A stretch of 64,000 nt of DNA from positions 1 through 64,000 of the forward strand of contig NZ_AGUD01000244.1 in the NCBI RefSeq assembly GCF_000240225.1. Direction: 5' to 3'. The stretch comes from Patulibacter medicamentivorans (lineage in GTDB: Bacteria; Actinomycetota; Thermoleophilia; Solirubrobacterales; Solirubrobacteraceae). Shown here one piece after another: positions 38,909 to 44,593 of this stretch; within the stretch, counting starts at the first letter, position 1; the number at the start of each line of letters is the position of its first letter. Position numbers and translations under genes: made by a program. The notes under the pieces are model-generated. The model saw only the letters and a list, made by a program, of their open reading frames with translations, made no database searches and was not told where the DNA came from.

Positions 38909-39190
38909 ATGGCACACAAGAAGGGCCTCGGCTCCTCCCGCAACGGCCGCGACTCCAACGCCCAGCGCCTCGGCGTGAAGGTGTTCGCCGGCCAGGTCGT
39001 CACCGGTGGCGAGATCATCGTCCGCCAGCGCGGCACCGTCTTCAAGCCCGGCAAGGGCGTCGGCATCGGCAAGGACGACACGCTGTTCGCGAAGGACGCG
39101 GGCGTCGTGGCGTTCACCCGCGGCTGGCGCGGCCGGGTCGTGACGGTCGAGCAGCCGGCGGAGCAGCCGGTCGCCGTCGCCGCCGACTGA
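38909..39190 (+). CDS. rpmA: 50S ribosomal protein L27
   Basis: A 93-residue ribosomal protein L27, beginning [21 protein letters not shown], the conserved N-terminus reaching toward the peptidyl-transferase centre. There is no N-terminal extension that would need Prp-type cleavage, as in Firmicutes. A CGGAGAA Shine-Dalgarno-like stretch precedes the ATG. A very strong terminator follows. Confidence 0.98.
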
Positions 39191-40325: not shown

Positions 40326-40709
40326 ATGCCTCGTCTGAACCCCGCCAACGTCTCGCGCCTGATCGGCGTCGGCCGGATCGCCGTCGGCGCCGCTCTGCTG
40401 GCGGTCCCCGGCCGCGTCGGGCGCCCGTGGCTCGGCGAGGCCGGAGCGACGCCGGCGGCGCAGGTCGCGCTGCGCGGCCTGGGGATCCGCGACGCGCTGA
40501 TCGGGATGGCCCAGATCCACACCGCCGGAGACCCCGACCGCGGCTACCGCTGGGCGCGGACGAGCGCCGTCGCCGACGTCGTCGACCTGGTCGCGACGCT
40601 GGCGGCGGCGCGGTCGCTGCCCGCGACCGGCGTCGCGGCGACGAGCACCGTGGCGGGCGCCGCGGCCGTGGTCGGCCTGGCCACGAGCCGGGCGATGCAG
40701 GCCGCCTAG
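40326..40709 (+). CDS. small membrane protein of unknown function
   Basis: A 127-residue protein with three or four short hydrophobic segments: IGVGRIAVGAALLAVPG, VALRGLGIRDALIGMA, VADVVDLVATLAAARS and STVAGAAAVVGLATSRA. The layout is like DUF4267-type four-helix membrane proteins, but I cannot confirm the family. The start is supported by the -10-like TAGGGT. It overlaps the 3' end of the SDR gene by 4 bases (convergent). Confidence 0.65.
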   Translation: MPRLNPANVSRLIGVGRIAVGAALLAVPGRVGRPWLGEAGATPAAQVALRGLGIRDALIGMAQIHTAGDPDRGYRWARTSAVADVVDLVATLAAARSLPATGVAATSTVAGAAAVVGLATSRAMQAA

Positions 40710-41398
40710 CCGTCCTGGGCGGTCGGCCGCAGCAGGATCTCGTTGACGTCGACCCGGGGCGGCTGGCCGAGCGCCCACAGGACCGCGCCGGCGACGTCCT
40801 CGGGGTGCAGGGCCTCGATCGACGGCGCGCTGTCGAAGAACGGGGTGTCGACCATCCCGGGCGCGATCAGCGTGACCCGGGCGCCGGTCCCGTTGAGCTC
40901 CTGGCGCAGCGACTCGGCCATCGCGCCGACCGCGAACTTGGTCGACGAGTAGAGGCTGCCGGGAAGCGCCCGCCGGCCGGCGACCGAGCCGGTCAGCAGG
41001 ACGTGGCCGCGGGAGGCCGTGATCGCCGGCAGGGTCGCCCGGATCGTCAGCGCGGCACCGTAGACGTTGGTCAGCACCATCGAGCGCCACTGCTCCGGGC
41101 TCTCCTCGAGGAATCCGCGGCGGGCCCCGAAGCCGGCGTTGGCGAAGACCGCGTCGAGCCGCCCGAACCGCTCCCGCGTCCGCTCGACCGCCGCCTCGAG
41201 CTGATCCCACTCGGTGACGTCGGCCGGCACCACCAGCACCCGCTCGCCGCCGTCGAGCTGCGCCGCCAGCTCGTCGAGCTTGGCCGCCGAGCGGGCGCTG
41301 AGCGCCACGCTCCAGCCCGCCCCGAGCGCCGCCCGGGCCGTGGCCGCGCCGATCCCGGAGGAGGCGCCGGTGATGAACAGGACCCGCTCGTCGGCCAT
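40706..41398 (-). CDS. short-chain dehydrogenase/reductase
   Basis: A 230-residue classical SDR. The cofactor motif TGASSGIG is at residues 10-17, NAG at about 91-93, the catalytic Ser in LLTGSVAG (about 138) and the YxxxK motif YSSTK at about 151-155. It oxidises or reduces an alcohol/ketone with NAD(P)H in the cytoplasm; the substrate is not evident. Start ATG 41398. The same frame is open for 1.4 kb upstream, but that is an antisense artefact of the GC-rich region. Confidence 0.9.
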   Translation of the reverse strand: MADERVLFITGASSGIGAATARAALGAGWSVALSARSAAKLDELAAQLDGGERVLVVPADVTEWDQLEAAVERTRERFGRLDAVFANAGFGARRGFLEESPEQWRSMVLTNVYGAALTIRATLPAITASRGHVLLTGSVAGRRALPGSLYSSTKFAVGAMAESLRQELNGTGARVTLIAPGMVDTPFFDSAPSIEALHPEDVAGAVLWALGQPPRVDVNEILLRPTAQDG

Positions 41399-41500
41399 GT
41401 GGCGAGTGTCGCACGGCGATCGGGCCACGTCGGCCGGCCGAGCGCGGGCCTCTGCAGCCTGGTCACCAGGACGTGTCGCGCCGCGGTCGGGCGGCGCGGA

Positions 41501-41650
41501 GCTGGTGGCGGGTGGCGTTGGGTGGTCGGGGGCGTCGGCGGTAGGCCGTCGGCGAGACCCGGTGGCGGGCGGCGTTGGGCGGCGTTGGGTGGCGCGGTGG
41601 CCGGTGGCGGTTGAGGCGGAGCAGGTCGGGCGGCGGGTGGACGGGTCGTT
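41501..41650 (+). repeat. G-rich array of GGTGGCG/GGCGTTGGG words
   Basis: Degenerate repeats of GGTGGCGGGTGGCGTTGGGTGG type; GGCGTTGGG-like words occur at least three times. The strong G/C strand bias and many GG/GGG runs make G-quadruplex formation possible. A matching C-rich array lies on the other side of the DUF559-type gene (43061-43175), so the two are in inverted arrangement. Confidence 0.65.
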
Positions 41651-41782
41651 CTTTGTGCCGAGAACGTGCAGGCCCGCGGCGGGCGCGTGCCGATCGCGTG
41701 TCGATCGGGGCGGTCGCGGCGAGACGGCGGGGTGAGCGGGAGATCCTTCGCGGATGCGCTGCGAAAGCCGTCTGCGGAACGA

Positions 41783-41831
41783 GCACCAGACGCCAGGGGT
41801 CCGCCGCGGGGGGACCTGTGGCGCCTCGTGC
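41783..41831. repeat. left palindromic element of the DUF559 unit
   Basis: Arms 41783-41802 and 41812-41831 are inverted copies with 16 of 20 bases matching. The left arm, GCACCAGACGCCAGGGGTCC, is close to the 18-base words at 42946, 43006 and (inverted) 43037 on the other side of the gene. Confidence 0.6.
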
Positions 41832-41884
41832 CCGTTGGACGCGGACGACGCGCCACAGCTTGGCGAGATCGGGGGCTCTGGCGG

Positions 41885-42856
41885 ATGATGCCGGTCGTCC
41901 AGGCCGGTCCCCGCGCCGGGGCGCCGCCCGCCGGTCTCGAGGGCGACCACGCGGTGGCGTGGTTCGCCGAGCGGCAGCACGGCGTCGTCGCCCGCCCGCA
42001 GCTGCTTGCCTGCGGCATCACCCGGGCTGGGATCGACCACCGGTCGCGGGCCGGGCGCCTTCACCGGGTGCACCGGGGCGTCTACGCGGTCGGCCACGGG
42101 CTCCTGACCTTCGAAAGATCTGCCATGGCCGGGGTGCTCGCGATGTCGCCGGACGCGCTGATCAGCCACCTCACCGCGGCGCGCTTGTGGGCGATCCTGC
42201 CAGCGGGGACCCACGTGCCCGACTCCGGCGAGCCGATCGACGTGACCGTCGTCGGTCGCAATCCCGGTTGCCACCCGGGCATCCGCCGGCACCGCAGCGC
42301 CGTCCTGGGGCCACGCGACCTCCGCTGGATCGGCCCGATTCCGGTCACCTCGCCGGTCCGGACCGTGCTCGACGTCGCCGCCGCCGGACAGATCTCGTTC
42401 GTCGAACGGATGCTGGCCGAGGCGCTGCGGGCTCGGTTGACCTCCGAAGCCGAGGTCCGCAGGACCCTCGCAGGCTCGCCGGGCCACGCGGGCCTGCGAA
42501 CGCTCGGCCGGGTGCTCCGGATCGGGCCCGCCTTCGATCGCTCGGTCGCCGAGCGGCTGCTGGTCGAGTTGCTCCGTCGCGCCGGGATCCCACGTCCGCG
42601 GACCAATGCTCGCGCCGCCGACTTCGAGGTCGACGCGCTCTGGCCCGACCTGCGGGTCGTCGTGGAGTTCGACAGCTTCACGTTCCACGGCGACCGGATC
42701 GCCTTCCGCCGGGACCGCCGCAAGCTCGCGCGGCTCCAAGCCGCTGGCTATCGGGTGGTGCCGGTCCTCTGGGAGGACCTGCGCGATGCGCCTGCGGCCG
42801 TGGTCGCCAACATCGCCACGGTGCTCGCGGTCGCGCGCGAAGGGCTCCGCCGGTGA
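41885..42856 (+). CDS. AbiEi-like/DUF559 nuclease-like protein
   Basis: A 323-residue protein (ATG 41885, or 41888). The N-terminal part looks like the AbiEi winged-helix antitoxin type: ERQHGVVARPQLLACGIT (HTH, about 29-46), RAGRLHRVHRGVYAVG and LTAARLWAILP. The C-terminal 90 residues have the DUF559/Vsr-like endonuclease pattern: FEVDALWPDLRVVVEFDSFT with Glu261, then HGDRIAFRRDRRKLARLQAAGYRVVPVLWEDL, matching the D/E-x-E and late Arg/Trp pattern of the PD-(D/E)XK-like very short patch repair fold. No toxin partner (AbiEii) is adjacent. It sits between palindromic and G/C-rich flanks in the interrupted rpmA-obgE interval, suggesting acquisition. Function unproven. Confidence 0.8.
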   Translation: MMPVVQAGPRAGAPPAGLEGDHAVAWFAERQHGVVARPQLLACGITRAGIDHRSRAGRLHRVHRGVYAVGHGLLTFERSAMAGVLAMSPDALISHLTAARLWAILPAGTHVPDSGEPIDVTVVGRNPGCHPGIRRHRSAVLGPRDLRWIGPIPVTSPVRTVLDVAAAGQISFVERMLAEALRARLTSEAEVRRTLAGSPGHAGLRTLGRVLRIGPAFDRSVAERLLVELLRRAGIPRPRTNARAADFEVDALWPDLRVVVEFDSFTFHGDRIAFRRDRRKLARLQAAGYRVVPVLWEDLRDAPAAVVANIATVLAVAREGLRR

Positions 42857-42945
42857 CGCGACGGGCATGCCGGCACGGCGCATGAGCGGTTGGGCACCGC
42901 GACGCTGCGGGTCCGTCGGCGCGCGCTTCGCGCGGGCACCAGCCT

Positions 42946-42963
42946 GCACGACACGCCAGGGCC
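42946..42963 (+). repeat. 18-base palindrome arm (single) of the DUF559 unit
   Basis: GCACGACACGCCAGGGCC, 17 of 18 identical to the inverted arm at 43037-43054. It is followed by a GCCCGC/GCGGGC mini-hairpin, and its ACGCCA can pair with TGGCGT near 42982. Confidence 0.6.
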
Positions 42964-43005
42964 CGCAGCGGGCGCCGACTATGGCGTCCAATGCCCGCTG
43001 ACCGT

Positions 43006-43054
43006 GCATGACGCGCCAGGGCCACCGTTCGACGCAGGCCCTGGCGTCTCGTGC
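43006..43054. repeat. right palindromic element of the DUF559 unit
   Basis: Arms 43006-43023 and 43037-43054 match at 15 of 18 bases in inverted orientation, with a 13-base loop. The arm consensus is GCACGAGACGCCAGGGCC, the same word as in the left flank. Confidence 0.7.
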
Positions 43055-43060
43055 TCGCCA

Positions 43061-43175
43061 CCCGCCGCCGCGTGCCCGCTGTCCGCCGCGCGCCCACTGC
43101 CCGCCGCGCGCCCACTGCCCGCCGCTGCGCCACGCCCGCCGGCCCGCCGCACGCGCCGCCCAACCCGCCGCACCG
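43061..43175 (+). repeat. C-rich array with an exact 18-base tandem repeat
   Basis: CCGCC-rich sequence in which GCCGCGCGCCCACTGCCC occurs twice in tandem (43085-43102, 43103-43120) with degenerate copies on either side. It is the C-rich counterpart of the G-rich array at 41501-41650. Confidence 0.75.
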
Positions 43176-43222
43176 GACTGCACCGGGCCGCCCCGTGCCC
43201 GGCGGCCTGCGACCATCAGCGG

Positions 43223-44593
43223 GTGCTCTCCGACAGCGCGCACATCTTCGTCCAGGGCGGTCACGGCGGTGACGGGTGCATGTCGTTCCGTCGCGAGGCG
43301 CACGTGCCCAAGGGTGGTCCCGACGGGGGCGACGGGGGCCGCGGGGGCAACGTCGACGTGATCTGCGACGACTCGCTGCGGGACCTGCAGTCGTTCTCGC
43401 GGCGGGTCCACTTCAAGGCGCCGCGCGGCCGCCACGGCGAGGGCGCGCTGAAGAAGGGCCACGACGGCGAGGACCTGGTGATCAAGGTGCCGCCCGGCAC
43501 GCAGGTCACCGCGCTCGACGGCGCCGTCCACGACCTGATCGTCCCCGGCCAGCACGTGCGGGTCGCCCGCGGCGGCTCCGGCGGACGCGGCAACGCGCGC
43601 TTCGCGTCGCCGATCCGGCAGAGCCCGCGCTTCCGCGAGCACGGGCTCGAGGGCGAGGAGGGCTGGATCGACCTGCGGCTGAAGCTGCTGGCCGACGTCG
43701 GCCTGATCGGCCTGCCCAACGCGGGCAAGTCGTCGCTGCTGTCGCGGATCACCCGCGCCACGCCGAAGGTCGCCGACTACCCCTTCACCACGCTGGAGCC
43801 GGTCCTCGGCACGATCCAGGGCGAGCAGCGGCAGCTGATCCTGGCCGACATCCCGGGCCTGATCGAGGGCGCCAGCGAGGGCAAGGGCCTGGGCCACGAG
43901 TTCCTGGCCCACGTCGAGCGCTGCCGGCTGCTCGTCCACGTGCTCGACCTGCAGCCGCTCGACGGCAGCGACCCGGCCGTCAACCACGCCGCGATCGAGG
44001 CCGAGATCGCCGCCTACGACGAGCGCCTGGCCGCGCTGCCGCGGATCCTGGTGCTGAGCAAGTCCGACCTGGTCTCCCCGGAGGCCGCCGAGGCCGCCGT
44101 CGCCGCCTGGGACGAGCGCCTGAATGGGCCCCGCGGGCCGCAGGGCCAGCGCCTGGGCGCCGACGGCCAGCCGCTCGAGCCGTGGGAGGCCGCCGAGGCC
44201 GCCGAGGTCCCGGTCCTGGTCACCTCCAGCGCCACCGGCGGCGGCCTCGACGAGCTGCGGGCGCTGCTGCTGCGAACCGTCCCGGTGCGACCGGCCGACG
44301 ACGCCCTCGCCCTCGACGCGACGATCGAGTCGATGGCCGAGCACCGGGTCTACCGGCCCAGCGCCGAGCGCGACTGGCGGATCGCCAGGGCCCCCGCCGG
44401 CTTCGCGGTCACCGGCCCCGGCGTCGAGCGGCTGCTCAAGCGCCACGACCTCGAGAACGAGGAGGCGCTGGAGTACCTGGAGTCGCGGCTGCGCAAGATG
44501 GGCGTGATCGAGGCGCTGCGCGAGGCGGGCTTCGAGGCCGGCGACGAGGTCGACATCGCCGGCGTCGCGTTCGAGCTCGACCCGGAGCTGTAG
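43223..44593 (+). CDS. obgE: GTPase ObgE/CgtA
   Basis: A 456-residue ribosome-assembly GTPase. The glycine-rich OBG fold comes first (SAHIFVQGGHGGDGCMSFRR... about 1-158). The G domain follows: G1 GLPNAGKS at 163-170, DIPG for G3, LSKSD for G4 and a SSATGGG G5. The C-terminal OCT domain (about 370-450) is present, as in actinobacteria. GTG 43223 was chosen: the protein starts at the usual place (VLSDSAHIFVQGG), while the upstream open frame is repeat-derived. It is normally directly downstream of rplU-rpmA; here 4 kb of other genes and repeats intervene. Confidence 0.95.
   Translation: MLSDSAHIFVQGGHGGDGCMSFRREAHVPKGGPDGGDGGRGGNVDVICDDSLRDLQSFSRRVHFKAPRGRHGEGALKKGHDGEDLVIKVPPGTQVTALDGAVHDLIVPGQHVRVARGGSGGRGNARFASPIRQSPRFREHGLEGEEGWIDLRLKLLADVGLIGLPNAGKSSLLSRITRATPKVADYPFTTLEPVLGTIQGEQRQLILADIPGLIEGASEGKGLGHEFLAHVERCRLLVHVLDLQPLDGSDPAVNHAAIEAEIAAYDERLAALPRILVLSKSDLVSPEAAEAAVAAWDERLNGPRGPQGQRLGADGQPLEPWEAAEAAEVPVLVTSSATGGGLDELRALLLRTVPVRPADDALALDATIESMAEHRVYRPSAERDWRIARAPAGFAVTGPGVERLLKRHDLENEEALEYLESRLRKMGVIEALREAGFEAGDEVDIAGVAFELDPEL

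Follow-up and report, generated by a model that had tools for sequence, protein, structure and literature searches.

Four-arm DNA arrays paired with predicted AbiEi-nuclease fusions in Patulibacter and other Solirubrobacterales

Between rpmA and obgE of Patulibacter medicamentivorans, in the 64,000-nucleotide stretch of contig NZ_AGUD01000244.1 analysed here (hereafter the window), lies a gene for a 323-residue protein predicted to join an AbiEi antitoxin to a nuclease domain, and on each side of that gene stands an array of four 13-bp arms, the first array terminating on the gene's own start codon. Arrays of the same geometry are dispersed through this genome and those of relatives. The best reading, for which a probability of about 0.55 seems reasonable, is that the protein is a nuclease which recognises arrays and represses its own gene, and that these arrays spread in the manner of repetitive extragenic palindromes (REPs). 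Some palindromic repeats scattered through genomes are known to have an enzyme of their own, the HUH transposases (RAYT). If the reading is true, private arrays would belong to another enzyme family too, one unrelated to the first, and operator sites would be seen to be capable of turning selfish and dispersing. The AbiEi subset of the DUF559 proteins, which are abundant and largely uncharacterised, would also gain a function, and the relation of gene to array yields ready enzyme-target pairs with long, evolvable specificity. A CGTC family of REPs has been reported without a dedicated enzyme (PMC3733652).

The arrays and the gene between them

The nuclease gene occupies 41885..42856 on the forward strand. 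Array 1 (41783..41891, +) has its arms at 41783-41795, 41819-41831 (inverted), 41843-41855 and 41879-41891 (inverted), the last arm containing the ATG codons at 41885 and 41888, either of which may be the start. Array 2 (42946..43054, +), with arms at 42946-42958, 42982-42994 (inverted), 43006-43018 and 43042-43054 (inverted), lies after the gene's stop codon and before obgE. In both, arms of consensus GCANSASRCGCCA alternate in orientation and are separated by spacers of exactly 23, 11 and 23 bp, so that one unit is 49 bp and two units at a 60-bp period make a complete array of 109 bp. A sequence-only reading of this DNA had picked out five palindromic words around the gene; they are there, and prove to be individual arms of the larger arrays. 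The significance of the arrays derives from the four-arm arrangement and not from single words, 17-mers with up to three mismatches numbering 4 in the window against 1.6 expected, a count equalled by 7 of 100 shuffles. The pattern 13-N23-13, with up to two mismatches, gives 16 matches in the 5.09-Mb genome and none for the reversed control. The word does not recur elsewhere in the window, as had been thought, and the pattern searches on which the census in this genome is based locate about seven further array loci outside it (C28, C114, C124, C137, C160, C296 and C336), most of them pairs exactly 60 bp apart.

Do the inverted arms form hairpins, as the sequence-only reading supposed? At variable positions partner arms covary no better than shuffled arms, be it in this genome (p = 0.80), in Patulibacter minatonensis of the same genus (p = 0.61) or in the genome G095 (p = 0.90, 40 units), and an Rfam search of the arrays gave no family match. 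Together these results speak against a hairpin or RNA reading. The related proposal, that the arrays act as terminators or other hairpins of RNA or DNA, linked to the gene only incidentally, draws on the inversion of the arms and on a position that is often behind genes; given in addition a spacing that is exact to the base and the gene-cognate pairing set out below, there is next to no chance that it is right. In G095, 7 of the 13 arm positions are nearly invariant across 80 arms, and array arms stay intact while spacers drift. Such constancy without covariation is what independent protein contacts would be expected to leave.

What protein might make those contacts? Profile searches place an AbiEi_4 winged helix (E=2e-8) at residues 27-69 (41963..42091, +) and, at residues 219-311 (42539..42817, +), an EDxHD/Vsr/DUF559-like nuclease domain, for which the matches to MTES_1575 (1e-4) and DUF559 (0.005) both miss the curated cut-offs; the combination noticed earlier in the bare translation, an AbiEi-like winged helix with a DUF559/Vsr-like nuclease, is thereby confirmed. 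With the AlphaFold model (predicted local distance difference test score, pLDDT, 90.7), the best Foldseek match in the PDB is 6y8q, the AbiEi antitoxin of Streptococcus agalactiae (~204 columns), and the nuclease part matches 3r3p, the catalytic domain of I-Bth0305I (template modelling score 0.81 of target), and then Vsr; a profile search also returns 3hrl and 3r3p for the nuclease domain. E223, D250, W253, E261, D263, H268 and D277 are invariant across 30 homologues, and PADLOC AbiEi models match all 30. On the model, then, the protein is an AbiEi antitoxin, winged helix and second domain both, fused to a domain like that of EDxHD homing endonucleases. No AbiEii (DUF1814) toxin gene adjoins it, obgE and an AA_kinase/PUA gene (proB-like) coming next, which supports the earlier idea of a repeat-plus-nuclease unit lacking that toxin. 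In the openly available literature searched, no mention of the combination of AbiEi with DUF559 was found, and the titles and abstracts of the DUF559 literature describe no repeats of the array kind.

Pairing of gene and array, and copying of arrays

Six arrays, all with the 60-bp pairing and with arm GCANGATCCGACA, are present in P. minatonensis, one of them ~105 bp after an AbiEi_4/DUF559 gene; more arrays of the same geometry, with arms GGGNNNCCCGACA, occur there (L046 4655 and L048 19135), one being separated by 66 bp from an array of GCACGATCCGACA type. A scan of a genome collection found seven arrays with core CGTCA in the Solirubrobacterales metagenome-assembled genome (MAG) JAFAYP, one of which immediately adjoins the start of an AbiEi_4/DUF559 gene, and one array in each of two further MAGs. 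In the MAG CATPBV an array stands at the start of the window protein's best homologue. The plasmid collection gave one weak match and the phage collection none. Scan matches in 'Bacillus subtilis SK7B5' were rejected as plain tandem repeats and not arrays; the contigs so labelled (L068, L071; JAHREJ010000061, JAHREJ010000074) have 67-68% G+C and for that reason are probably contamination.

To test the gene link independently of the arm letters, a letter-blind scan was made in which the four-arm geometry alone was scored around 120 Solirubrobacterales homologues. The first geometry score rose on plain 61/70-bp tandem repeats of P. minatonensis, and because of this the recount took only inverted-pair matches, with a score of 36 or more. 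That genome has several tandem repeats, their periods ~60-61 and 70 bp and their units weakly palindromic, at G001:C1 14757, 142456, 249000, 279466 and 770075. On the recount, 13 of 118 start regions reach the threshold, as against 0/120 and 0/120 at two within-gene places, 1/112 far upstream and 2/119 downstream, and with spacings shifted by a single base just 0-1 genes pass; as P. minatonensis has ~4 such positions in a stretch of 795 kb, the chance expectation is ~0.1. Taken overall, the figures are 13-14 genes with the geometry at the start codon and 0-3 for control regions and one-base spacing shifts. The arm letters vary from gene to gene (e.g., GCATGACACGTCA, GAACGAGTGACGG, CGTCAACGTCGGT, GGCGAACGTTACA and GCACAACTGACGG), and the array ends are mostly grouped 4-21 bp ahead of the codon equivalent to residue 21. 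Arms of GCAY type have RTGC on the other strand, which can by chance supply a start codon in one of three frames, and this occurs at some ordinary genes; the firm cases of a start within an arm are therefore L075, L076 and L115, where the frame is closed upstream and the sole start codon available ahead of the AbiEi domain is inside the last arm.

Arms read at a gene predict dispersed arrays elsewhere in the same genome: four were found in G009, in 60-bp pairs, three in G025 (control 0) and about 22 in G095. In P. medicamentivorans itself there is a second gene-array family, the paralogue L012 (C332:7906-8793) having an upstream array with arms like GNCCGATCGYCAT, and similar arrays occur on C137 (L054 5807-5915 and 5926-6034) and, more weakly, on C95 (L059 13588). 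The window's word is missing at the other paralogues of the genome, so that the expectation of copies clustering around DUF559 genes in general did not hold; nor is the word scattered at random as regards its own gene, and the paralogue at C332:7906 has an arm family to itself. That gene and array are paired is hardly to be doubted. The recurrence in three further genomes supports the early suggestion that the repeats are the protein's target, which is the most likely account of them, and the window protein very probably binds its arrays.

How did the dispersed arrays arise? In G095 they are homologous over ~115 bp, spacers and linker included, at roughly 75-88% identity, the homology usually stopping at about -3 and +111, with a few pairs extending further. 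Comparison of the copies thus indicates that whole elements, not arms alone, were copied. At hypF, two genes nearly abut in three congeners, and G095 has ~212 extra bp there enclosing an array; a second candidate empty site, the DUF3516 helicase locus, has its two flanks on separate contigs in the congeners. A further candidate explanation, that dispersed arrays are relics of lost genes, was rejected, a homologue being present in none of 45 stretches lacking a known linked gene. By a simple G+C-based gene call, the genes on either side of 42 dispersed arrays are tandem in 23 cases, convergent in 14 and divergent in 5, and no shared function was seen among these neighbours. REPs are described as lying likewise between tandem or convergent genes (PMC3733652).

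A proposed self-repressing nuclease and the alternatives

The S. agalactiae AbiEi represses its own operon via two 23-bp inverted repeats; those bound by Rv2827c of Mycobacterium tuberculosis, also 23 bp long, number four, are paired across gaps of 13 bp and extend as far as the start codon (PMC7319586). When the arms of the present arrays are extended to 23 bp, the same 13-bp gap appears. EDxHD enzymes dimerise on ~60 bp, and I-TevI is a homing enzyme and an autorepressor together (PMC3943268). It is on account of these three precedents, AbiEi operators, ~60-bp dimer targets and the double role of I-TevI, that self-repression and nuclease-driven copying are proposed. Up to four AbiEi-EDxHD subunits would recognise the four 13-bp arms of their cognate array, set at the 60-bp period. 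At the array over its own start codon the protein would repress itself in the fashion of AbiEi antitoxins, which is probable; elsewhere its nuclease domain would break or nick DNA, and repair would then copy the array into new intergenic sites, generating a low-copy REP-like family. For this latter part, spread of arrays driven by cleavage, the chances are about even. Each gene lineage would alter its arm letters, the dispersed arrays changing alongside. Whether AbiEi-EDxHD fusions with a private four-arm array, self-repression, spread by targeted cutting and co-turnover of arm and specificity constitute a class not previously recognised is likewise evenly balanced.

Several observations weigh against this. 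The gene itself stays put and does not travel with its arrays; a detectable array is present at only ~12% of homologues; among 14 genes, similar winged helices do not go with similar arms (Mantel p=0.48, a weak test in which one sequence was read in a shifted frame); the array-linked gene of G095 (L264, G095:C43) is, as assembled, frameshifted within the winged helix; and the orthologue at the P. minatonensis junction matches in two pieces and looks broken. Furthermore, because the extra DNA at the empty hypF site is ~212 bp, the element borders are not the array ends, and ~50 bp per side is unexplained. The static gene amid spreading arrays, the seemingly frameshifted G095 gene alongside many arrays, and the unsettled borders would also suit a different enzyme spreading the arrays as miniature elements, one of which the AbiEi-nuclease adopted as operator. 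Yet the pairing recurs in five or more genomes, each time in other arm letters, and would then need repeated independent adoption at the same start-codon position; a borrowed repeat of this sort is rather unlikely.

Could an ordinary regulon suffice, with the protein repressing itself and controlling the genes beside dispersed arrays while its nuclease serves elsewhere, e.g., in defence? AbiEi proteins are autorepressors (PMC7319586), and arms that remain intact despite spacer drift would fit. However, so many arrays between convergent genes and so few between divergent ones, neighbours without a common function, and the copying in G095 of whole elements with their spacers are not what such control would lead one to expect, and it is an unlikely explanation. 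The origin of AbiEi in toxin-antitoxin systems, echoed in the PADLOC matches, brings to mind a toxic nuclease that the arrays hold as harmless decoys, or for which they are targets whose loss triggers cutting; with the toxin partner absent beside the gene, and nothing to tie the arrays to phages or plasmids, that is very improbable. The self-repressing nuclease with REP-like arrays is preferred.

Known relatives and the rpmA-obgE junction

By function the system is closest to REP/RAYT, an analogy drawn already from the sequence and apt; by parts it matches none of REP/RAYT, the AbiE toxin-antitoxin pairs and the known homing enzymes. With REPs, REPINs and their RAYT (TnpA_REP) it shares inverted elements lying outside genes, repeats on both sides of a nuclease gene dedicated to them, further genomic copies, lineage-specific sequence and placement between tandem or convergent genes. 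In contrast to them, the nuclease is not HUH/Y1 (Y1_Tnp) but MTES_1575/DUF559 with an I-Bth0305I/Vsr-like fold, the hairpin constraint is absent, partner arms varying independently in three genomes, and the unit is a four-arm one of 109 bp with a copy number of ~4-23 versus often >100. With the AbiEi antitoxins of S. agalactiae and M. tuberculosis (Rv2827c) it has in common the winged helix, the second-domain fold for which 6y8q is the best structural match, and inverted repeats reaching the start codon, which in those antitoxins form the operator, with four repeats in two pairs in Rv2827c and a period of 63 bp there versus 60 bp here; what differs is the lack of an AbiEii toxin gene, the fused nuclease domain and the dispersed cognate arrays. 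The EDxHD homing endonucleases (I-Bth0305I), together with Vsr and DUF559, share the 3r3p fold and the invariant E, D, H and D-type residues with it, and known members use a long target, ~60 bp per dimer. Unlike them, the present gene is not in an intron or phage (the phage collection holds no homologue) and stays at rpmA-obgE by descent, AbiEi modules serve as DNA binder, and the presumed target is the protein's own dispersed array. I-TevI is comparable, being a homing enzyme that also represses itself, at an operator similar to its target (PMC3943268), but is a GIY-YIG enzyme of a phage intron without dispersed arrays. As for miniature inverted-repeat transposable elements, which have defined ends and a target-site duplication, the G095 copies share about -3..+111, and at the single empty site G095 has the ~212 extra bp.

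The sequence-only reading saw the gene as wedged between rpmA and obgE. An AbiEi-DUF559 gene lies between the two in G002, G004 and JAFAYP; in G007 and P. minatonensis, for which the stretch compared does not reach rpmA, such a gene adjoins obgE. This synteny in five other genomes rules out a recent mobile insertion, and because of it the gene's position is judged to be inherited vertically. Are its repeats kept by descent as well? In P. minatonensis and G004 array-like repeats downstream of the junction gene have other arm letters, which indicates that the arrays change their arm sequence from species to species while the gene stays; vertical descent thus holds for the gene and not for the letters of its arrays. 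The closest orthologue of the window protein in P. minatonensis (L077/L099, C1:5105997-5106693) has 65% identity in the nuclease part and keeps an array-like repeat before obgE.

In the window the junction's left marker, rpmA (ribosomal protein L27), is at 38909..39190 (+) and obgE, the right neighbour, at 43223..44593 (+). The divergent left neighbour at 40706..41399 (-) is short-chain-dehydrogenase-like, its translation containing MADERVLFITGASSGIGAAT, and the frame submitted had no Pfam match. Upstream of the G004 junction gene (L118 ~1148-1265, reverse-complemented locus) a tandem repeat, nearly perfect, has a period of 60 bp like the arrays.
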